Positions 12,412 to 38,710 of a DNA stretch of 64,000 bases are shown piece by piece. The stretch spans positions 62,001-126,000 of the forward strand of contig CANQWS010000001.1 in assembly GCA_947627615.1 (NCBI GenBank), written 5' to 3'. The position numbers and the translations under genes are program-made. The notes below the pieces were generated by a model. The model made no database searches and was not told where the DNA came from. It was given only the letters and a program-made list of their open reading frames with translations. This DNA comes from an uncultured Muribaculaceae bacterium (GTDB taxonomy: Bacteria; Bacteroidota; Bacteroidia; Bacteroidales; Muribaculaceae). Within the stretch, counting starts at the first letter, position 1; every line of letters begins with the position of its first letter.

Positions 12412-14784
12412 TTCCGCGGACGTCTGCTCGATGCCGTTACGGGTGAGCCTGTGTCCGGAGCGATTATAAGGATTTCCGGAGGCCGGTCCTACACTTCATC
12501 CGATGCCCGTGGGCGGTTTCCCCTGAATGAGGGAGTTTCAGGCTTTTCTGTCCGGTGCATGGGCTATGAGGATATGGAGCTGACCTTGCCTTTGCCCGAA
12601 TCCGACATACGCCTGACTCCGAAGGAGACAAAACTCAGGGAGGTGGTGGTCAGCGCCCCTGACATATATCAGCGCGGTGACACTCTTGTGTTCAATGTGG
12701 GGAAATATGCCACGGCGGCCGACAATGCTATTCTCGATGTAATCAGACGTTTGCCCGGAATCAAAGTGGAGAACTACGGGCAGATAATGTATAACGGCAG
12801 GCCGATAAACAAATTCTACATCGACGGCAACGATTTTGCGGGCGACCGGTACGGACTCGCCACAAACAATATATCGAAGGACGATGTGGCGGCCGTTGAG
12901 GTAATGGAAAACCACCAGCCTATAAAAGCTCTCGAGGATATAGAATTTTCCGAACAGGCGGGAATAAACCTTAAGCTCAAAGAGGATGCCCGTTCCCGCT
13001 GGGTAGGTGTGGCAACACCGGGTGGAATCCTGACAACGAGATAAGGGACACCGGATATGACCCCACTGTTTTCAGGAGATTTCAAAGAAAACCGATGGGA
13101 GGAATACATAACTGCCGACCGTGTGGATTCACCGCTTTCCGAGTCCCGCATACGCGACAATTTATCCTGTCTCGCCAACGCAATAACATCATGGGGAAGC
13201 AGCGGTGTGTCCAAAAGACTGACAGTCAATTATTCCGGAGACAGGATTGACTATGACACCGGATTCACCACCGATTATTTCAGCCCCGACATCGAGAATT
13301 TCACTCAGGGAAATGCATTGCGCCCTTTTAGGCAGTCTCTGTCGGGCGAGATGCGCGCGGAGGTCTACCGCAGAAATTACTTCCTCAAAAATAATTTCAT
13401 TCTCGCGACCGGTTCCGACAGGTCTCGTTCGGCCATAACCGGCTCCATGGACCTCGTCCAGAAGATACGCAGGATATCTCTCATGGCAAGAAACGACCTG
13501 AGGCTGATACGCAAGACCGACGAACAGGTGTTTTCGCTTTCCTCGCGCAATGAATATTCCCGGAATCTGTCAGACCTGAACGTTGCCTTCAGGAATGGCA
13601 ATCCGTCGCAGACAGTCCGGACCTCGGATTTCCGCAGCATCACAGAGAGCCGCTACGGATGGTTTGCAGGATACTGGCGTGTCTATCTCACCGGAAATCT
13701 GGATCTGGAATACCGGCATCTGGATGCCGCGCTCAAGGATTTTGACTGCTATTTCATCCGTTCGGCTGACAACGGCGCTTTTCTTGCATCATTCACGCTG
13801 ACACCTCAGGCCGAATACGAGCAGCGGGGATGGAGAATTAACGTCAGCGCGCCTGTTGGCCTGACTCATTACGGTATAAACGGAAGCCATCGGTTCCTTT
13901 GTCTCAGCCCGAATGTCAGGGTGCGCCGGCAGCTTGGAGCTAAGTCCGATGTGACTTTTTCGGCCGCATATTCTTCCTCGGCGCCGGCGCCGTCCATGTT
14001 TGTCAACTGCGTATTTCTGACGGACTACCGCAATCTTTACGCCGCTACACCCTCGGGAAGGACCGAGGGCAATACATTCGTGTCAGCCACTTACCGTTAT
14101 CGGAATCCGCTCTCTTCCTTTTTTGCTAACGTGTCGGGAAGCTTCAGCTACAGCCGCTCGCCGCTCATCACTGACCGCCTGTTTTCCGACGGATTCATTG
14201 TGACCACATTCCGGCCTCTGAACTACGGCACCTACGGCTACATGCTGAAAGGTGGCGTAAGCAAGGGTTTTGTGCATGGCCGGCTTGTGGGCGGCATGGA
14301 TGCGGGGTTTTCCCGGACAAAATCAGCAAGCATGCGCGACGGTGTCAGGATTCCATTCCGTCAGGACTGCGTGACGCTGAATGCGTATTTCAAAGGAAGC
14401 CTCTGCCGGTGGCTTTCCATGCATTATTCCCTTGACGCCGCCTTCAATCTGTTGAAGATAAGCGGAACGTCGCCGGACCGGTCGTCATCGCTCAGTCAGA
14501 AGCTTTCATTCACATATAAGCCCCTTGATAACCTGAATGTGGTAATGGGAGCCGAGCATTATTTCACCGATTTCGGAGAGGGTGGCCGCAAATCCGGTAT
14601 GGTATTGCTGGATGCCTCGGCTACATGGCTCATCGGTCCACGCACGCGGCTGTCTCTGGTGGTAAATAACCTTCTTGACCGCCACACTTACAGCTACACA
14701 ACATTCGGACCTCTTTCCCGGACCGATTACAACTACCGGATACGCCCCCGTGAACTGCTTGCCACGCTGCAGGTGCGTTTCTGA
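12412..14784 (+). pseudogene. TonB-dependent-receptor-like outer-membrane protein, 5'-truncated with internal deletion/frameshifts
   Basis: GRLLDAVTGEPVSGAII start lacks signal peptide; VMENHQPIKALEDIEFSEQAGINLKL then stop at 13044; NPDNEIRDTGYDPTVF in another frame; barrel continues 13057-14784 with C-terminal aromatic VRF. Confidence 0.7.
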
Positions 14785-29467: not shown

Positions 29468-31402
29468 ATGAGGAATGACGCCCTACGTTCTCTGTCGGAA
29501 CAGCAACGGCTTCTGCGCATGGAGTATGAGGCCGAAAAAGCGTCGTTCTGTAAAATCACTGAAGCCCTGGGGCTTGAGAGGCTTGCCGAACGCGGCAACG
29601 CGTGGGTAGGAATCCGGCTGGAACGGACCTATTACAATTCCCTTAACCAGAGAGTGGTGGAGCTGTACCGGAACAGTGACGGAGACGATGACCACAACTT
29701 TGAATACGGCAAGCCGGTGGCGTTTTTCGCTGTCGACTGCAGAGCCGGTAGTCGTCCGCGGTTCCCGTTTACGGGTACAGTGAGCTATGTCGACGGTGAC
29801 CGCATGGTTGTCGCCGTTCCTGACAATTGCGATCTGTCCGCAATCAGGGATGCTGCCGTGGCGGGAGTGATGCTTTCGTTTGACGAAACCTCTTACCGGA
29901 CCATGTTCGAGGCTCTGGAGACTGTCGCCAAGGCCAAAGGCCGTCTCGGCGAACTCAGGGACCTGTTTTATTCGCCGACACGTGCGGGCGAGCTGTCAAT
30001 GCCGGATATTGGATTTCCGTATCTCAACGAATCCCAGTGCAAGGCCGTCAACAAGGTCCTGCGGGCCAAGGATGTGGCCATAGTTCACGGGCCTCCGGGC
30101 ACAGGCAAGACCACAACCCTTGTCGAGGCCATCAACGAGACTCTCCGCCGCGAGAGTCAGGTGCTTGTGTGCGCCCAGAGCAATATGGCTGTCGACTGGA
30201 TCTGTGAGAAACTCGTTGACCGCGGCATCCATGTGCTGCGTCTCGGGAATCCGTCGAGAGTCAATGACAAAATGCTCTCGTTCACCTACGAACGGCGCTT
30301 CGAAAGCCATCCTGATTATCCCGATCTGTGGGCCGTACGCAAGGCCATGCGTGAGCTTAAGGGTTCGCGCCGGAATTCCGACCAGTGGCATCAGAAGATG
30401 GACCGTCTGCGCAGCCGGGCCACAGAGCTGGAACTAAGAATCAATAACGATCTGTTCAACAATGCCCATGTCATTGCCTCGACGCTGGTGGGAAGTGCGT
30501 CGCGACTGCTTGACGGTATGAAATTCCCGACACTGTTCATCGACGAGGCCGCGCAGGCCCTCGAAGCCGCAAGCTGGATTCCGATGCGCAGGGCCGGAAG
30601 GGTGATTCTGGCGGGAGACCACTGCCAGCTGCCGCCCACGGTGAAATGTTACGAGGCCATGAAGCAGGGACTCGGAGTCTCGCTGATGGAGCGGCTTGCC
30701 GAGACGCATCCCGAGGCGGTGACACGTCTTTCCGTACAGTACCGGATGAACGAGGCCATAATGGAATTTCCGAACCGATGGTTCTACGGCGGTTCCATGA
30801 TTGCCGCGCCGGAAGTGCGTTTCAGGGGCATCCTTGACCTCGACACCCCGATAGACTGGCTTGACACCTCATTTCTCGCATCGAAATCAGGTGATGAATC
30901 CGAGACTGTGGATGAAGATGATGACAGCGCTTTCCGCGAGAGTCTGGCCGGCGCCGGGCATGGACGCGTGAACCGTGACGAGGCTCTGTTTGCCGTGCTG
31001 GCGCTCCAGCGGTTCATTCTCAGGATAGGGCGTGAACGTTTCATTCAGGAACGGATTGACGTAGGGCTGATTTCGCCCTATCGCGCCCAGGTCCGTTATC
31101 TGCGGTCCATACTGAAGAAGCTGCCGTTCTTCAAGCCGTTCCGTCGTCTGATTTCCGTTGACACCGTCGACGGTTTTCAGGGTCAGGAGCGGGATGTGAT
31201 TGTTATTTCGCTCGTGCGCAGCAACGATGACGGCAACATCGGTTTCCTGCGGGACCTTCGCCGAATGAACGTAGCCATGACCCGCGCACGCATGAAGCTG
31301 ATAATAGTGGGCAACGTGCGGACCATGGCTTCCAATCCGTTCTACCGCAAACTGAATTCCTACGTAGCCGGGATTCGCGTGGGAGATTCTGAGGGTCAGT
31401 AA
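29468..31402 (+). CDS. Superfamily 1 DNA/RNA helicase (UPF1/IGHMBP2-like)
   Basis: VHGPPGTGKTTTLVEAI, FIDEAAQALEAA, SVDTVDGFQGQERDVIVISLVRSN, MNVAMTRAR. Confidence 0.9.
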   Translation: MRNDALRSLSEQQRLLRMEYEAEKASFCKITEALGLERLAERGNAWVGIRLERTYYNSLNQRVVELYRNSDGDDDHNFEYGKPVAFFAVDCRAGSRPRFPFTGTVSYVDGDRMVVAVPDNCDLSAIRDAAVAGVMLSFDETSYRTMFEALETVAKAKGRLGELRDLFYSPTRAGELSMPDIGFPYLNESQCKAVNKVLRAKDVAIVHGPPGTGKTTTLVEAINETLRRESQVLVCAQSNMAVDWICEKLVDRGIHVLRLGNPSRVNDKMLSFTYERRFESHPDYPDLWAVRKAMRELKGSRRNSDQWHQKMDRLRSRATELELRINNDLFNNAHVIASTLVGSASRLLDGMKFPTLFIDEAAQALEAASWIPMRRAGRVILAGDHCQLPPTVKCYEAMKQGLGVSLMERLAETHPEAVTRLSVQYRMNEAIMEFPNRWFYGGSMIAAPEVRFRGILDLDTPIDWLDTSFLASKSGDESETVDEDDDSAFRESLAGAGHGRVNRDEALFAVLALQRFILRIGRERFIQERIDVGLISPYRAQVRYLRSILKKLPFFKPFRRLISVDTVDGFQGQERDVIVISLVRSNDDGNIGFLRDLRRMNVAMTRARMKLIIVGNVRTMASNPFYRKLNSYVAGIRVGDSEGQ

Positions 31403-32229
31403 TCGGTCTCTATGGCATGACGCTCTTTCAGGAATTTGGGACGCGGCTTCCCGCTGGTGGTGCTGACGATTTTAATGCCGCGTGAAGCCAGTTGACTCTC
31501 AATGTTGTTTTCCAGATACTCATGGTCTGCGAGGGCTTTACGGCGCTCTGCCCTGTCGTATCCGTCTTTCCGGTAGACTGTCGGAACGGATGAATCCGTG
31601 TAGCCTACCTCTGTGGCGGTGAAACTGAAAGGGGAGTTGTCGGCTTCCGCGCTGAGTATCAGGCCCGGCAGACCGTGGAATTTCCATGGGCCGTCCTGAA
31701 GCGGAATCTCCGGGGTGAACCAGACATTCCACCGGCGGCCGTGATAATCGGTAGTGGCAAGGATACACTGGTAGCCGAGAACCGTACGCGTGGAGTCCTC
31801 CGCAAGTTCCCATTGCATCTCGTCGAAAGGCTCCGAATACTGGCACAGTTCCGATGCCAGACGGTCATAGACCGTCATGGACGCCGAAGGGAAATCTTTT
31901 TCAACATACGTGTAGACCTGTTTGTCAGGGGCGTTCCCTTTGGATTTGTTTACGGTTATCGACCCGTCAGGCCCGGTGGAGACCCACGCAGCCATCTGTA
32001 TCTCCCGCAACTGTTTCTTCCCTTCCGGAGTAGAGGTCAGGGAATCCACATAAAGGCTCATCTCGTTATAGTACAGCGAATGCTCGCCGTCCGAAACGAG
32101 AGTCATTTTTGCCTTTCGGGTGGTTTCATCAATGACTTTAGGAGACGTGGCGGAATATTTCACCGTTAGGTTACGGGCATTCGCCATCGTGGCGACGGCT
32201 ACAAGCAGAATCAGTATGATTTTTTTCAT
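31396..32229 (-). CDS. GLPGLI family protein
   Basis: DYHGRRWNVWFTPEIPLQDGPWKFHGLPGLI; signal peptide. Confidence 0.93.
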   Translation of the reverse strand: MKKIILILLVAVATMANARNLTVKYSATSPKVIDETTRKAKMTLVSDGEHSLYYNEMSLYVDSLTSTPEGKKQLREIQMAAWVSTGPDGSITVNKSKGNAPDKQVYTYVEKDFPSASMTVYDRLASELCQYSEPFDEMQWELAEDSTRTVLGYQCILATTDYHGRRWNVWFTPEIPLQDGPWKFHGLPGLILSAEADNSPFSFTATEVGYTDSSVPTVYRKDGYDRAERRKALADHEYLENNIESQLASRGIKIVSTTSGKPRPKFLKERHAIETDY

Positions 32230-32250: not shown

Positions 32251-34863
32251 TTATTTTCTGACGGTTACGGAGAGCAGAAGCTGACGGCCGCGGAGCATGC
32301 GGCACGAATCGAACTTTGACAGTTCCGAGTAGGTGGTATAGCTGTAGGTCAGCCGGTTGAGCATATTGGTCAGGCTTGCTGTAATCTCTACGCGCCGGCT
32401 TGGGCTGTAGGATAGTTTGCAGTCAAGCATCAGCATGTTCTTATAGTTGTCGGCGGTCAGTTCGTTCCGGTAATGCTCGCCGCTTATCTGGAACTGCCAT
32501 TTGGAAACCGGGGTAAGAGTCAGGCTCAGCTCGTTGACCATTCCTGTTAGCCATGACTGCTTCACGGTGTTCATGCTCAACCGGTTGCGTGATAGGTTGA
32601 CAGAGTAGTCAATGCTCAGCCAGTCAAGCGGCGACCCGCTCAGGCCGGCTCCTGCACGCCATTCGGTTCCGATGGATTTCACTGACTTGTCCTGCGACAG
32701 GAGATTCGATGCGCTGCGGCGGTAAAAACCGTTGACATTGAAGCTGCCCCGCATGAAATCGAGAGTCTTGCCCAGGCTGCAGAGCGCTGTCAGAGAGCGG
32801 GAATCGTTGTCGGCATCCGAGTAGGAATACACTACGTAATCACCCAGCAGCAGTTGGGACATGGTGTAGGGTACATGATTCCAGTTGTGACTCACGCTGG
32901 CATTGGCGAAAATTCCGTAGCGCGTGTGCTTGTACTTGAACGAGGCCGAAACCCGCTGGGAAGATGTGTTGTAGAAATCGTCGACACCCCGGCTCATGGA
33001 GCGGTAATCGGTCATGATCAGTCCCGGATGGATGAGACTGAGGTCCATGGGCGAGCGTCCGATTCCGCCTTTGAGAGTCATTGACAGGCGGTTGTTGGGA
33101 TTCCAGTTGAGGCTTAGCGACGGAGAGAAGTAGATTTCCGAGCGGTCAGCTATGGTGTTATGGAATGAGTAACGGGCCATGCTCAGAGGTGTGTTGAGCT
33201 TGAAATTGACTCTTCCGTACCAGTATTCGAATTTAGGGGAGGCGTAGAGTGTGACATAACCTGTGTTGACGGTATTCACAAATTCCATTGACTCCGGTGC
33301 GTCGGTCCGGCCTGTCATGTCCGATGACATTTTGCGGAAGCAGCCTTTTATACCGCCTTCGAGGCCTACGGTGACACTGCGTATGGCCACAGCGTAGTCA
33401 ACGCTCTCATGGGTGAAGAATGCATGGTCGGCCACATGCTGACGGAACTCCGAGCCGCTTTCTTTATCGTCTGCAGGACTGACTGAAAGCGTCTGCGGAA
33501 GCGATTCCCATTCGTTGACGCTATGGAACGTTATCAGATGTTTGCCTTTGAACCGTTTTATCATTTTCAGGCGGTTGCTGATGTAATAGTCCGGGTTGTC
33601 GGCTGACTGGATGCAGGGCATGGTGCCGGTCGTGGCGAGGCGTGTGTCGTTCCAGTCAATATTGGTCTGCAGGGTGTTGTTGGCGAATACGGTCTTATGA
33701 TTGAGTTCATAGATGAATTTCGCCCCGAGCGAATGGGTGTGGGCTTTGCCGTCGCGGTTTTCGGTGATAACCCGGTCGCCTCCGCCCGGGCCGTCGTCCG
33801 GCAGGAAGTATGTGGTTATATCCGATGCTCCCGCCGTCAGCCGGTTGAATGAATAATCGAGGTCCATCTTGAATTCGCCTCTGCTGAGTTTCCACAGATT
33901 GTTAGTCGAAAGAATGAAAGAGCGGTTGAAACGTGTGCGCCTGCTGTTAAGCGACGGGGCCGATGGCAGATTCGTGGAGATGTAACGGCGCAGGGCGGTC
34001 TGCCGGCGCTGTGCGAAAAAATCCATGGTCGAGGCCGAGAGGCTTTCGCCTGTGTTGTTCGTGCGTATCGAAGTCATGTTCTGGAAATCGGGCATTACGG
34101 CCATGGCAAACAGCTCGCCGTCCCATAACGCTCCTTCAGGCTGCCATGACCATCCTCCGCCGGCATCGCCGTGGAAACTCCATGTGGCTTTGGCTTTGTT
34201 CTTGAGTTTCAGGTTGATGGCTGCCTTGTCGGAAAAAGATATGCCTGACAGCACCTGCATGGGCTGGTGGTTTTCCATCACTTCTACAGACCCAACATCG
34301 TCATGGTTGATGCCGTTGGTGGCCATGCCGTATTTGCCGCCGAGAAGATCGGAACCCTCAATGTAGAAGCGGTTGATATCCTCGCCCTGATACTGGATTT
34401 TGCCGTTTTTGGCCACGTCTATGCCGGGCATGCGCTTCAGCACGTCGCCAATCGAGCGGTCCTGTTTCTGGGCGAAGCTCCCGACGTTGTAGGTTACGGT
34501 GTCGCCCTGCTCGCGTATGCGGTCGGCCTTGACGGCCACCTCTTTCAGTGTTATGTTACCGGGCAGCATTTCTACGGTCACGGGAAATTCCAGACTGTCC
34601 AGCTGAAGCGTCCGGCGGGCGAAGCTCATCATTGACACTTCGAGGCGGCAGCCGGTGACCGTAGGAACTGTCATTGAGAATCCTCCGCCGGATTTGGATG
34701 TGGTGAATTTCTTTATTTTTCCGTCAGCGCCCTTGACCATGACCGATGCTCCGGCAAGAGGCTCGCCGGTTTCCTTGTCAATGACTTTGCCGCAGACATC
34801 GACCTGTGGCAATGCAAGCAACGGCAGGACAAGAAGGATTGTTATGGTCAGCAGTCGGTTCAT
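32251..34863 (-). CDS. TonB-dependent-receptor-like outer-membrane protein (CarboxypepD_reg-like N-domain + plug-like + barrel)
   Basis: GKVIDKETGEPLAGASVMVKG, IGDVLKRMPGIDVAKNGKIQYQGEDINRFYIEGSDLLGGKYGMATNGI; barrel strands to C-term. Confidence 0.85.
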   Translation of the reverse strand: MNRLLTITILLVLPLLALPQVDVCGKVIDKETGEPLAGASVMVKGADGKIKKFTTSKSGGGFSMTVPTVTGCRLEVSMMSFARRTLQLDSLEFPVTVEMLPGNITLKEVAVKADRIREQGDTVTYNVGSFAQKQDRSIGDVLKRMPGIDVAKNGKIQYQGEDINRFYIEGSDLLGGKYGMATNGINHDDVGSVEVMENHQPMQVLSGISFSDKAAINLKLKNKAKATWSFHGDAGGGWSWQPEGALWDGELFAMAVMPDFQNMTSIRTNNTGESLSASTMDFFAQRRQTALRRYISTNLPSAPSLNSRRTRFNRSFILSTNNLWKLSRGEFKMDLDYSFNRLTAGASDITTYFLPDDGPGGGDRVITENRDGKAHTHSLGAKFIYELNHKTVFANNTLQTNIDWNDTRLATTGTMPCIQSADNPDYYISNRLKMIKRFKGKHLITFHSVNEWESLPQTLSVSPADDKESGSEFRQHVADHAFFTHESVDYAVAIRSVTVGLEGGIKGCFRKMSSDMTGRTDAPESMEFVNTVNTGYVTLYASPKFEYWYGRVNFKLNTPLSMARYSFHNTIADRSEIYFSPSLSLNWNPNNRLSMTLKGGIGRSPMDLSLIHPGLIMTDYRSMSRGVDDFYNTSSQRVSASFKYKHTRYGIFANASVSHNWNHVPYTMSQLLLGDYVVYSYSDADNDSRSLTALCSLGKTLDFMRGSFNVNGFYRRSASNLLSQDKSVKSIGTEWRAGAGLSGSPLDWLSIDYSVNLSRNRLSMNTVKQSWLTGMVNELSLTLTPVSKWQFQISGEHYRNELTADNYKNMLMLDCKLSYSPSRRVEITASLTNMLNRLTYSYTTYSELSKFDSCRMLRGRQLLLSVTVRK

Positions 34864-34864
34864 C

Positions 34865-35722
34865 TCAGTGATAATCGGTTTCAATGAGGTCATCCTCGCC
34901 TTTGTAGTTGGCATCGGAGGAAATTTTCACTTTCCCGCCGGTCATGGCTCTTATCTGGTCAGCCCGGTTCCGGCGTCCGTAATCGCGCATTTTCAGAACG
35001 GACTTCCTCTGTGTATGGAAATATTTCGAGTTCTCGAAGTCAGGTTTCAGCGGTTCGTTGCATTGCTGCAGACCGGTGATGACAAACGAATACAGTCCGC
35101 CTTCGCACGTGGCTTCCATTATGAGACCCGGAAGGCCGCACAGTTGCCACGGCCCGTCGGACACGGTGATTTCCGGCGCGAACCATGCTTCCCAGCGGCG
35201 TCCGTGATAGTCCGCCGTGGCGAGCTGGCATTCATAGTCCAAAACGGTTTTCGTGGAATCCAGCAGGTCCCATGTCAGGTCGGACATGTCCACGTCATAG
35301 CGGTAGCTGTCGCCGGTGCAGGTGTCCCACACTCTGATGATTCCCTTGTTGAAATCCTTGCGGCAGCGGTAGCGTGATTCCGACATGTAGCCCTGCTCTT
35401 TCATTATTTTGAAAGGATCCTTGGTTCTGTCCTCGGAAAACGCCTGCAAGGCGGCCGAGAAAGCCTGGTCAAGTATGATTTTGCCCTGCGGGTCATTGGT
35501 CATGGAGTCCACATAAAATGTCTGCGGATTATAGTAGTAGGACATGGATGGAGCTATCTGGAGTACGAATTTGTACGCTAACGGCTCACTTTTGCCCGTT
35601 TTTGAGTTGAGCGAATTGGTAATCTGCCTGTACTCCGCTTTCAGCATTGCCGCGGGGAGTTCTTCGGCTCCTGCCGCAATCCATGCCGCGGCCATGATTA
35701 TAAGGGCTATAGTCTTTTTCAT
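34865..35722 (-). CDS. GLPGLI family protein
   Basis: DYHGRRWEAWFAPEITVSDGPWQLCGLPGLIMEA; signal peptide. Confidence 0.93.
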   Translation of the reverse strand: MKKTIALIIMAAAWIAAGAEELPAAMLKAEYRQITNSLNSKTGKSEPLAYKFVLQIAPSMSYYYNPQTFYVDSMTNDPQGKIILDQAFSAALQAFSEDRTKDPFKIMKEQGYMSESRYRCRKDFNKGIIRVWDTCTGDSYRYDVDMSDLTWDLLDSTKTVLDYECQLATADYHGRRWEAWFAPEITVSDGPWQLCGLPGLIMEATCEGGLYSFVITGLQQCNEPLKPDFENSKYFHTQRKSVLKMRDYGRRNRADQIRAMTGGKVKISSDANYKGEDDLIETDYH

Positions 35723-36570
35723 AACCTGTAGTCTGTTTCAAGGAAATCATATTCGGTCTGGGCGGGGGCGTCCTTGCCGAGATCAAGACCTATGGAGGCT
35801 TTCACCATGGCGTTGGAGTTGTTACGGTAGTTCCTGAGGTCTTTAAGCATCTGCCTGCGGTTCATCCGGTCATATTTTTTCTCTCCGAAAACAGGCCGTA
35901 TCGGTTGACCGGACTTCTCTATTCCGTCGGCCGTGAATGTGTGCTGGCCGCTTGGTTCGGATGCTTCGAGAATCAGTCCCGGAAGTCCGCAGAGTTTCCA
36001 CGGTCCGTCATGGACAGAAATCTCGGGCGAGAACCATGCGGTCCACGTGCGTCCGTGATAGTCCGTCGTGGCCATTATGCATTCATAGCCGAGTATAGTC
36101 TTCGATGAATCGCAGATTTCCCACCTGATTTCGGAAAACGGTTCGTCGTAACGGCCGGACTCCGTCATTCCGGCCTTGTCGTAGACCGTGGTTATGGAAT
36201 CAGCGTGGTTTTTCATGACGTACATAAATGTCTTGTAGGCATAACTGTCCATCAGGCTCTGGTCGTTGTTTTTGAGATAGGCGTCAACAGCGGCATTTAG
36301 CATCTGACGGTCAAAGGCGCGTCCCTGAGCGGTGGAGTCAAGTGAATCCTTGAACTCCGTATGCGGGGAGTAGAATTTGGAAATGTCTGCGTTGGCGAGA
36401 AGAATCATTGGGATGTCCGTCTCGTAAGGTTCGGTATTGCCCCGCAGCGATTTCAGGTGATAACAATAGCTTACTTTGACCTCGGCACGCGGGTAATCCT
36501 TCTTTTTACAGAAAGAGGTCAGGGGAGCCGTCAGCATTGCCGCGGCTAATAATATAGAGGCAGGTTTCAT
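35719..36570 (-). CDS. GLPGLI family protein
   Basis: DYHGRTWTAWFSPEISVHDGPWKLCGLPGLILEA; 4-nt overlap with next gene. Confidence 0.93.
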   Translation of the reverse strand: MKPASILLAAAMLTAPLTSFCKKKDYPRAEVKVSYCYHLKSLRGNTEPYETDIPMILLANADISKFYSPHTEFKDSLDSTAQGRAFDRQMLNAAVDAYLKNNDQSLMDSYAYKTFMYVMKNHADSITTVYDKAGMTESGRYDEPFSEIRWEICDSSKTILGYECIMATTDYHGRTWTAWFSPEISVHDGPWKLCGLPGLILEASEPSGQHTFTADGIEKSGQPIRPVFGEKKYDRMNRRQMLKDLRNYRNNSNAMVKASIGLDLGKDAPAQTEYDFLETDYRL

Positions 36571-36587: not shown

Positions 36588-38252
36588 TTAGCTTTTTTCT
36601 ACGAACGGGACAGGTATGGTCATTTGTCCGGTGACGGCTTTGCCGTTTTCAGTGGCCGGGATGAACTCAGGCATACTGCCTATCACTCTCAGGGCCTCGT
36701 TGTCAAGTTGCGGATTTCCGGAGCTGTTGACTACATGTGGGTTGATGACCTTGCCGGAGGGGTCGACCTCGAACTGCACTATGGTGCGCTTCTTTTTGTC
36801 AAGTTTCACGCCTTCGGGTATCCGGGCGTTGCTCTTGATGAATTCCGTCATTTTTCTTATGCCCCCGGGATACTCCGGCAGGAATCTGTCCTCCGGCGTG
36901 TTGTCTCCTTCATCCTTGAGCGTTACTTCCAGAATGGCCTTGGAGCCTTTGCTCTTATCTATTTTCATGGATTTTATGGAGCCCGGTGACATTTTCTTGA
37001 AATCGGCGAACGGCACTTCCTTGCCTTCAACCTTTACGGTGATTTTCTTCTCAAAATCGGAATCGGTTTCGGGCTTGTTCTCGGCCTCTGTTTCGGTCTC
37101 GGTCTCTGTTCCCTCTATTTTTATTTCGGGAGCCGATGTGAAGGCCACGACCTGCGTCTCCGGCAGGATTACGGACAGCGGTTTCCCGTCAGCAGGTTTT
37201 TCCGGGGCAGCTGTCGGAGCGGCTTCGGGTGCTGTTTCCGATTCGGTTTCCGGAAGGATTGTCTCCTGCTCCGGTCCGGCATCAACGGGCGTTTTCTGCG
37301 TGGGAACATTCTGCGCGGGGAGCATAGCCACACTTCGGAATTCCTCAATCAGTGATGCCGGCAGTCTGCTGCTTACCGCTCCGGCCGTCAGGAAGGCCAT
37401 GGCTATGAGGGCCAGAGCCCATATCCGGCTGTTGTGGCCCGATTCGCCGCGCTGCATCATTATTATCCGGCGCTTCATGATTCCGTGGTTGAGGTAGTTG
37501 GCCATTGCGGTGAATTTGTGTCTGGCAAGCTTACTCAGGAGCAGCAGCTGGTAGGCGTGCATGTCGGCTCCGGAATCAATCACGGCCTGGTCAGCCTGAA
37601 ATTCATGGACTGACTTAAGTTCCTTCAGCATGAGCCATGCCGCCGGATTGAACCACTGCAGCGAGGCAACGATGCGGCCAATGGCTATGTCTATGGTGTG
37701 ATGGAGGGCTATGTGGCGCATCTCGTGGGCCATGATCATGGGTGCGTTTTCATTGAAGTCTTTCCGGCTCATCACCACTATGCCGGCAAGGCTGAACGGC
37801 GAGACGGTGTCGTCGTCGCACACGGCAACTCTTATGCCGTCAATCCGGTGACGTGCGGAATTGCGGATCATACGCCTGATGCGCATGAGACCCGGCACAA
37901 CTGATGCTGCTGAAAGGAGAACACCGCAGATCCATACCCACACCACGGCCGTAATCCATGAGACTGCTGACCCGGATTGCTGGAGCTGCTGTGCAGGGGC
38001 GTCATGCATTGCCGCCTGAGCTATCATCATCTCGATAATCTCGCCATCGGAAACTTCAGCGCCCGTTGTTACCGGCTTTTCGCCCGGCGCGATTACCGTG
38101 AAGGCCGCTATGGCTGAGACCAGATAGATTCCCAGCAGCGCAGCGCGGTTGAATGACGGTTGTTTCTCATTGGCCATCAGCAGGCGGTAGATGACCAGCA
38201 TCACAGCCATCATCAGCCCCATTGCCAAGGTGAATAAAAACAGAGTTCCCAT
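36588..38252 (-). CDS. BlaR1-type M56 metallopeptidase with periplasmic TonB C-terminal domain
   Basis: TM helices, AHEMRHIALHHTIDIAIGRI (HExxH); C-term YPGGIRKMTEFIKSNARIP...VQFEVDPSGKVINPHVVNSSGNPQLDNEALRVIGSMPEF; start MGTLFLFTLAMG. Confidence 0.88.
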   Translation of the reverse strand: MGTLFLFTLAMGLMMAVMLVIYRLLMANEKQPSFNRAALLGIYLVSAIAAFTVIAPGEKPVTTGAEVSDGEIIEMMIAQAAMHDAPAQQLQQSGSAVSWITAVVWVWICGVLLSAASVVPGLMRIRRMIRNSARHRIDGIRVAVCDDDTVSPFSLAGIVVMSRKDFNENAPMIMAHEMRHIALHHTIDIAIGRIVASLQWFNPAAWLMLKELKSVHEFQADQAVIDSGADMHAYQLLLLSKLARHKFTAMANYLNHGIMKRRIIMMQRGESGHNSRIWALALIAMAFLTAGAVSSRLPASLIEEFRSVAMLPAQNVPTQKTPVDAGPEQETILPETESETAPEAAPTAAPEKPADGKPLSVILPETQVVAFTSAPEIKIEGTETETETEAENKPETDSDFEKKITVKVEGKEVPFADFKKMSPGSIKSMKIDKSKGSKAILEVTLKDEGDNTPEDRFLPEYPGGIRKMTEFIKSNARIPEGVKLDKKKRTIVQFEVDPSGKVINPHVVNSSGNPQLDNEALRVIGSMPEFIPATENGKAVTGQMTIPVPFVEKS

Positions 38253-38256
38253 GGCG

Positions 38257-38655
38257 TCAGTTTTTTGATTTGTTTTCTTCTTCCTTGCGCTCCACCATTG
38301 CGAGCAGTTCGCGCAGCTCATCGGCCGAGATTTTTTCATCCTCGACAAGAGTGGAGACAGCGCTGAAATAGCTGTTGGAGAAAAAGTCCCTGACAAACTG
38401 GCGCAGACGGCTTTCGCGGACTTCCTCGCGTCCGGTTATGGCATAGAACCGATGGCTGCCGTTGATCACCTCATGACCCACGTGGCCTTTCTGTTCAAGG
38501 ATTCTGACGGTTGTTGATACGGTGTTGAAATGGGGGCGCGGTTCCTCGTAAAGCTCCACCATCTGGCGCACGAACAAGGGCCCGTTGTTCCATAGCTGCT
38601 GCATTATCACGGCTTCTTTTTCCGTAAGTGATTGACGTGGCCTGCCTTTCTTCAT
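38257..38655 (-). CDS. BlaI/MecI/CopY-family transcriptional repressor
   Basis: LTEKEAVIMQQLWNNGPLFVRQMVELYEEPRPHFNTVSTTVRILEQKGHVGHE. Confidence 0.93.
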   Translation of the reverse strand: MKKGRPRQSLTEKEAVIMQQLWNNGPLFVRQMVELYEEPRPHFNTVSTTVRILEQKGHVGHEVINGSHRFYAITGREEVRESRLRQFVRDFFSNSYFSAVSTLVEDEKISADELRELLAMVERKEEENKSKN

Positions 38656-38656
38656 G

Positions 38657-38710
38657 ACTAAATAATTAGTTGATGCCGCAAATGTATAACGAATTATTTA
38701 GTTATGCAAG
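38657..38710 (-). promoter_or_regulatory. Candidate promoter and BlaI operator pair
   Basis: ACTAA-N4-TTAGT (38657-38670) and ACGAA-N4-TTAGT (38689-38702), 32 bp apart; minus-strand TTGC-N19-TACATTFG-type -7 (TACATTTG at 38686-38679). Confidence 0.6.

Follow-up and report, generated by a model that had tools for sequence, protein, structure and literature searches.

The second gene of a six-gene operon in the 64,000-nucleotide stretch of DNA analysed here (the window), which comes from a Muribaculaceae bacterium of the gut, encodes an M56 metallopeptidase whose periplasmic arm is made of parts of the TonB system, and the system is best read as belonging to the BlaR1-BlaI family, with a new variant of its sensor. 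The BlaR1/MecR1-BlaI pair is familiar as a β-lactam switch, and homologues of Bacteroidota risk being misread as resistance sensors. Sequence and structure prediction establish an M56 core, a fourth transmembrane helix with the arm, a BlaI repressor, its operators and the operon. The switch probably reports on the outer-membrane import system rather than on penicillin, and on balance we think that it reads a receptor or the TonB system through its arm, by proteolysis of the BlaR1/BlaI type and with a sensor assembled from TonB-system parts.

The M56 protein and its periplasmic arm

The gene occupies positions 36588-38252 of the reverse strand and encodes 554 residues from an ATG at 38252. In-frame starts further out reach 38396; we took the ATG at 38252 as the start because it agrees with the N-termini of relatives and lies about 4-5 nt beyond the BlaI stop codon. 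The features of the gene are:

36588..38252, reverse strand: M56 metallopeptidase with plug-like hairpin and TonB_C (Pfam, AlphaFold2, Foldseek)
37713..37727, reverse strand: HEMRH zincin motif, residues 176-180 (HExxH invariant in relatives)
37590..37607, reverse strand: HEFQAD, second zincin motif, residues 216-221 (H, E and D invariant in relatives)
37047..37355, reverse strand: Pro/Glu/Thr-rich periplasmic linker, residues 300-402 (AlphaFold2)
37080..37109, reverse strand: TETETETEAE, residues 382-391 (sequence)
36915..37040, reverse strand: plug-like hairpin, residues 405-446, TVKVEGKEVPFADFKKMSPGSIKSMKIDKSKGSKAILEVTLK (HMM, AlphaFold2, family profile)
36603..36881, reverse strand: TonB_C domain, residues 458-550 (PF03544, TIGR01352, Foldseek)

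A preliminary description had read the protein as a BlaR1-type M56 peptidase fused to a TonB C-terminal domain, with N-terminal transmembrane helices and an HEMRH zincin motif, and this is borne out. Peptidase_M56 (PF05569) matches residues 13-265 above its Pfam cutoff (E 1.1e-10, 41.6 bits, cutoff 31), HEMRH and HEFQAD together form the zincin site, and four hydrophobic segments lie at residues 1-29, 35-58, 93-126 and 275-299. The protein thus has the domain, the HExxH with downstream H/E..AD motif and the neighbouring BlaI/MecI-type repressor that characterize family M56 (BlaR1/MecR1). Its AlphaFold2 model, built on an alignment of 22 sequences, has a mean pLDDT of 75.1 and a confident core, for which Foldseek gives BlaR1 of S. 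aureus as the closest solved structure (8exq, E 7.9e-5). Against the generic BlaR1 equivalog NF000326, the protein reaches only 30 bits (cutoff 400).

The TonB_C domain is matched at residues 489-550 by PF03544 (E 2.5e-13, 50.7 bits, Pfam cutoff 24.6) and also by TIGR01352 of NCBIfam (42.6 bits, cutoff 27.1). It is confidently folded in the model (pLDDT 91-97 over most of its length, up to residue 550), and in Foldseek searches the C-terminus matched the TonB C-terminal domains 6i97_D, 5lw8, 9dc4_T, 2grx_C and 2gsk_B; some of these structures are complexes with receptors. Neither Pfam nor Foldseek of the C-terminus revealed a penicillin-binding or class D-like domain, in agreement with the earlier view that the penicillin sensor is missing. 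Neither of the two observations named in advance as refuting the earlier description, a C-terminus without a predicted TonB_C fold or a penicillin-binding sensor domain in its place, was made. Fusions of M56 and TonB domains had been called known in Bacteroidetes; we find them to be common across Bacteroidota, and the fusion as such is therefore not new.

The linker is predicted to be disordered over residues 310-395 (pLDDT about 30-45). The acidic TETETETEAE segment pointed out previously is present within this Pro/Glu/Thr-rich stretch, but we rejected it as a functional motif, since it is of low complexity, disordered and not conserved among aligned relatives.

Immediately before TonB_C lies a second periplasmic module, which had been overlooked. 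At their C-terminal end, short M56 relatives share the motif IYLDGK..(10)..INP.DI.SI.VDK...I.ITTK, of which the window protein has a copy at residues 405-446. This copy scores E 4.5e-12 against our hairpin HMM, a value that is not independent, as the copy is among the six seeds of that HMM. The module (about residues 404-445) is predicted as E-E-H-E-E with pLDDT mostly 83-92. A profile of 56 M56 hairpins matched three SusC plugs with a probability of 94.9% (E 4.3e-8), compared to at most 1.1% for 20 column-shuffled controls. The M56 relative at locus L053 has two hairpin copies near the SusC/RagA signature (TIGR04057, 90.3 bits, cutoff 46.2) and scores 76.3 bits with Pfam Plug. Since Pfam Plug does not match the window M56 itself, we call its hairpin plug-like, its kinship being drawn from the family profile and from relatives. 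A pattern search found no TonB-box-like segment in the window arm.

The operon and its operator

The operon runs BlaI - M56 - GLPGLI - GLPGLI - TonB-dependent-receptor-like barrel - GLPGLI. The genes around M56 and the receptor-like barrel's candidate TonB box are:

38257..38655, reverse strand: BlaI/MecI-type repressor, 132 aa (Pfam Penicillinase_R, E 1e-23)
35719..36570, reverse strand: GLPGLI protein with a signal peptide-like N-terminus (TIGR01200, E 2.1e-40)
34865..35722, reverse strand: GLPGLI protein, overlapping the preceding gene by 4 nt (TIGR01200, E 7.1e-42)
32251..34863, reverse strand: TonB-dependent-receptor-like barrel, 870 aa (Pfam, SusC-like N-terminus, Foldseek)
34525..34551, reverse strand: TonB-box-like candidate around LKEVAVKA in the receptor-like barrel (sequence only)
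31396..32229, reverse strand: GLPGLI protein, last gene of the operon (TIGR01200, E 2.6e-39)

The intervals between successive genes are about 4-5 nt (BlaI/M56), 17 nt, a 4-nt overlap, 1 nt and 21 nt, and such short gaps and overlap are consistent with a single six-gene operon. The receptor-like barrel protein comprises a carboxypeptidase-regulatory domain (CarboxypepD_reg, E 2.1e-8), a putative plug (Pfam Plug, E 0.012, under the cutoff) and a predicted barrel. Its N-terminus matches SusC structures and all PDB matches listed by Foldseek are TonB-dependent transporters, at a TM-score of about 0.3 and for a model with a mean pLDDT of 69.7. A search for a TonB box at the mature N-terminus of this protein had been suggested; a candidate, LKEVAV, does exist, with E108 and A113 invariant in eight sequences, but it follows the carboxypeptidase-regulatory domain.

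The operon contains no ExbB or ExbD genes, and a TonB-type gene following an ExbD-like gene lies elsewhere in the window genome. Neither an ECF sigma/anti-sigma pair nor a β-lactamase was recognised among the operon genes by Pfam and NCBIfam. For the GLPGLI proteins, a sequence search of the PDB gave no match, and the literature consulted on the family attributes no function to it. Among 41 genomes, GLPGLI genes occur in 14, all of the same genus and including the window genome. By our grouping they form 25 loci: 8 with BlaI-M56, 5 with divergent genes of kinase/regulator size, and 12 with neither, as judged on the stretch read, which in several cases ends at a contig edge. In L230, L231, L233 and L238, the GLPGLI-receptor pairs have, in place of BlaI-M56, a divergently oriented histidine kinase and response regulator; Pfam identifies both genes in L230 and L233 and the kinase in L231 and L238, whereas the fifth locus, L232, was assigned by gene size only. 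It is as if the receptor/GLPGLI pair needed a dedicated signal transducer.

In GLPGLI proteins of one sister clade (L041, L042, L045, L047, L048, L060, L125), a C-terminal motif, INPASIS.VTVLK, weakly resembles the M56 hairpin (E 2e-5 to 9e-3). The window also contains a second receptor-like barrel gene (12451-14784, forward strand), with an in-frame stop at 13042-13044 that separates ORFs of 197 and 575 aa; it looks decayed and has no BlaI, M56 or GLPGLI matches beside it.

Upstream of BlaI, the following promoter and operator elements were located:

38707..38709, reverse strand: candidate -33 element (TTG...), 20 nt ahead of the -7 box (sequence)
38688..38703, reverse strand: predicted BlaI operator copy 1, AACTAAATAATTCGTT, within the promoter spacer (de novo motif)
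38679..38686, reverse strand: -7 promoter box TACATTTG (TANNTTTG) (sequence)
38656..38671, reverse strand: predicted BlaI operator copy 2, AACTAATTATTTAGTC, immediately before the BlaI start codon (de novo motif)

The candidate -33 element would fit the Bacteroidota promoter consensus. The operator is a palindrome, AACTA-N6-TAGTT, derived de novo from 116 BlaI upstream regions; sites are present in 87 of these regions, two or more of them in 81, whereas 1.7% of shuffles have a site. A recount with a simple pattern gave 95/150 versus 2/150. TTTGCGG, which overlaps the -7 box, was found in 27 BlaI upstream regions, where 0.8 were expected. The two window copies flank the -7 box TACATTTG and outscore every other site in the 64 kb window by about 10 bits. 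Copy 2 has a perfect ACTAAN4TTAGT core, as do only two other places in the genome, an AT-rich one at C17 and a GC-containing one at C82. The former, the sole further AT-rich perfect operator (L174, G000:C17:28420), is followed about 45 nt downstream by the gene of a repeat protein of the DKNYY family whose N-terminus resembles a signal peptide. With at most one mismatch, the operator matches 39 places in the genome, fewer than a reversed-pattern control (149), and we do not claim a wider BlaI regulon in this genome.

At loci L147 and L106 the gene order is receptor - GLPGLI - BlaI - M56, and there the operators precede the receptor; whichever order the genes take, the receptor is thus part of the BlaI operon. 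A second operator class, TACGA-N6-TCGTA, was found with 10 pairs from other Bacteroidota. The operator class goes along with the sensor: 82 of 95 AACTA-class pairs have a TonB_C or hairpin module, compared to none of the 10 TACGA-class pairs (p = 4e-8, kinship ignored). The window genome has a second BlaI-M56-receptor-GLPGLI operon (L069, G000:C38, 8445-13670), in which TonB_C has diverged strongly and the AACTA operator is absent.

What the arm may read

To place these modules in a wider context, we collected 126 non-redundant M56 proteins, the window protein among them, from 137 sources, using the whole protein as seed for L037-L092 and the M56 core alone for L093-L172; the census over-represents the window protein's relatives and is drawn mostly from one family. 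BlaI adjoins 112 of the 126 genes. TonB_C is present in 76 proteins and the hairpin in 67, with 30 proteins having both and 13 having neither; 113 thus have at least one TonB-system module, in varying orders (T, P, PT, TP, TT, PP and longer). Forty loci sampled from other Bacteroidota show the same modules again. TonB-box-like segments occur in the relatives at L070 (VAVVGYGTKKKG) and L218 (2508-5225, reverse strand; LDEVVVVGYGKR), the latter M56 combining its segment with a carboxypeptidase-regulatory domain, two TonB_C domains, two hairpins and a T9SS sorting domain.

In only 15 of the 126 cases do a receptor-like barrel and a GLPGLI gene both neighbour the M56 gene on the same strand; for the other 111 M56 proteins, the receptors, if they read any, must be encoded elsewhere. 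TonB_C occurs in 6 of the 15 and is missing from 9, and the hairpin occurs in 12. The neighbourhood is thus found for 6/76 proteins with TonB_C and 9/50 without, opposite in direction to what receptor reading by TonB_C would predict (p = 0.10), whereas the hairpin is associated with receptor linkage (p = 0.03, kinship ignored). The receptors at L147, L162 and L106 are 57-61% identical to that of the window, and their M56s have the hairpin but no Pfam TonB_C even at E ≤ 1; at L050, also a close receptor relative, the M56 has the hairpin and a divergent, sub-cutoff TonB_C. TonB_C bit scores are moreover lower in receptor-linked M56s (median 73 versus 116, p = 0.014). Neighbourhood counts, nearest receptor relatives and lower scores all indicate that a receptor link does not require TonB_C and does not usually come with it. 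The proposal that TonB_C reads the TonB box of a cognate receptor therefore holds in so far as a receptor-like barrel shares operon and operator with the M56 gene, but the link between TonB_C and receptor is not supported, and on the counts and nearest relatives we reject TonB_C as a general receptor-reading element. As the more constant partner, the hairpin is the better candidate for the receptor contact; TonB_C may add specificity.

For the window system, we propose that BlaI keeps the operon low without a signal. The arm would span the periplasm to the outer membrane, where hairpin, TonB_C or both may touch the receptor, the GLPGLI proteins or TonB, with the hairpin as the more general receptor-linked element and TonB_C as an accessory or alternative contact. 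The trigger might be an engaged receptor, either loaded with ligand or exposing its TonB box or plug; movement of the arm would then switch on the M56 active site, BlaI would be cut and the receptor/GLPGLI operon induced. In weighing this proposal we counted the domain and fold tests, BlaI adjacency, operators, their position before the receptor in L147 and L106, module recurrence, operator-sensor pairing, the kinase/regulator loci and the transporter-like fold of the receptor in its favour, and the lack of TonB_C enrichment beside receptors, its divergence there, the few receptor neighbours, the modest receptor model with its low TM-scores and the bias of the census against it.

The arm could instead read the general state of the Ton system, the receptor operon being merely output: true TonB might grasp the hairpin (in few relatives, a TonB-box-like segment), or TonB_C might compete with TonB for the boxes of many receptors. 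As this explanation would have it, most M56-TonB genes lack a neighbouring receptor, L070 and L218 have TonB-box-like segments, and a separate TonB-type gene lies beside the ExbD-like gene of the window genome. Yet the window arm shows no such segment by the pattern used, and a receptor and GLPGLI genes in the same operon suggest a dedicated partner, leaving the explanation rather unlikely. Somewhat less credible still is TonB_C as a relic or a simple anchor, for instance to peptidoglycan, with sensing by the hairpin alone or via the GLPGLI proteins. Close receptor relatives paired with M56s that lack TonB_C, the divergence of TonB_C in receptor-linked M56s and the weak hairpin-like motif of sister-clade GLPGLI proteins would all fit, but the TonB_C of the window lies clearly above the Pfam and NCBIfam cutoffs and has a confident predicted fold. 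We regard as improbable a sensor of outer-membrane assembly stress, whose arm would bind exposed plugs or TonB boxes of misassembled receptors and induce the operon: its modules are indeed receptor-derived, but no chaperone, non-M56 protease or BAM part was recognised in the operon (Pfam, NCBIfam). An ordinary β-lactam sensor of the BlaR1/MecR1 kind, suggested by the M56-BlaI pair and by BlaR1 as closest solved structure, is very improbable in an operon without recognised β-lactamase, and we reject a penicillin sensor as the identity of the C-terminus, which shows neither such a Pfam match nor such a fold.

Relation to known signalling systems

M56, BlaI, TonB_C and the M56-TonB fusion are known. 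We found no literature on a joint plug-like and TonB_C sensor, on the operator or on an operator-linked receptor/GLPGLI operon; as coverage was incomplete, the absence of an earlier report on M56-TonB/plug proteins is weak evidence. Our results suggest that, in a large branch of Bacteroidota, the sensors are TonB-system sensors rather than resistance sensors, and that this branch has an operator of its own and sometimes a receptor as output. If the proposed mechanism is true, it would explain how gut Bacteroidota, without using ECF sigma factors, link transcription to the use of outer-membrane receptors, and regulons could be predicted directly from the operator motif. More tentatively, and with the odds in our view somewhat against it, M56-BlaI arms that mimic the TonB-receptor interface could constitute a third type of trans-envelope signalling in Bacteroidota, beside ECF/anti-sigma cell-surface signalling and two-component systems. 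The arms would have taken up TonB_C and the plug hairpin, sometimes also a TonB box and a receptor N-terminal domain, and receptor engagement would be read by mimicry and lead to BlaI cleavage.

With BlaR1/MecR1 - BlaI/MecI of Staphylococcus aureus (8exp, 8exq, 8exs, 8ext), the window system shares a four-helix transmembrane M56 zincin, an extracytoplasmic C-terminal sensor past the last helix, a neighbouring BlaI-type repressor and an operator-controlled operon. It differs in that a hairpin and TonB_C on a disordered linker replace the class D β-lactamase-like domain, in its operator and in a receptor/GLPGLI operon as output. TonB energy transducers (PF03544) likewise have an inner-membrane anchor, a Pro/Glu-rich linker and TonB_C, but their anchor is a single transmembrane helix working with ExbB/ExbD, not a four-helix protease. 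The hairpin matches the plug signature of SusC/RagA (PF07715, TIGR04057), with L053 passing TIGR04057, yet it is only about 40 residues long, lacks a barrel and faces the periplasm as part of an inner-membrane protease. Cell-surface signalling of the FecA-FecR-FecI type (PMC7593790) also joins an outer-membrane TonB-dependent receptor to an inner-membrane protein and, as proposed for the window system, controls transcription by trans-envelope proteolysis. There, however, an ECF sigma/anti-sigma pair stands in place of the BlaI repressor and M56 protease; in the window system, the inner-membrane partner carries TonB_C and plug modules and the receptor has a carboxypeptidase-regulatory N-terminal domain.
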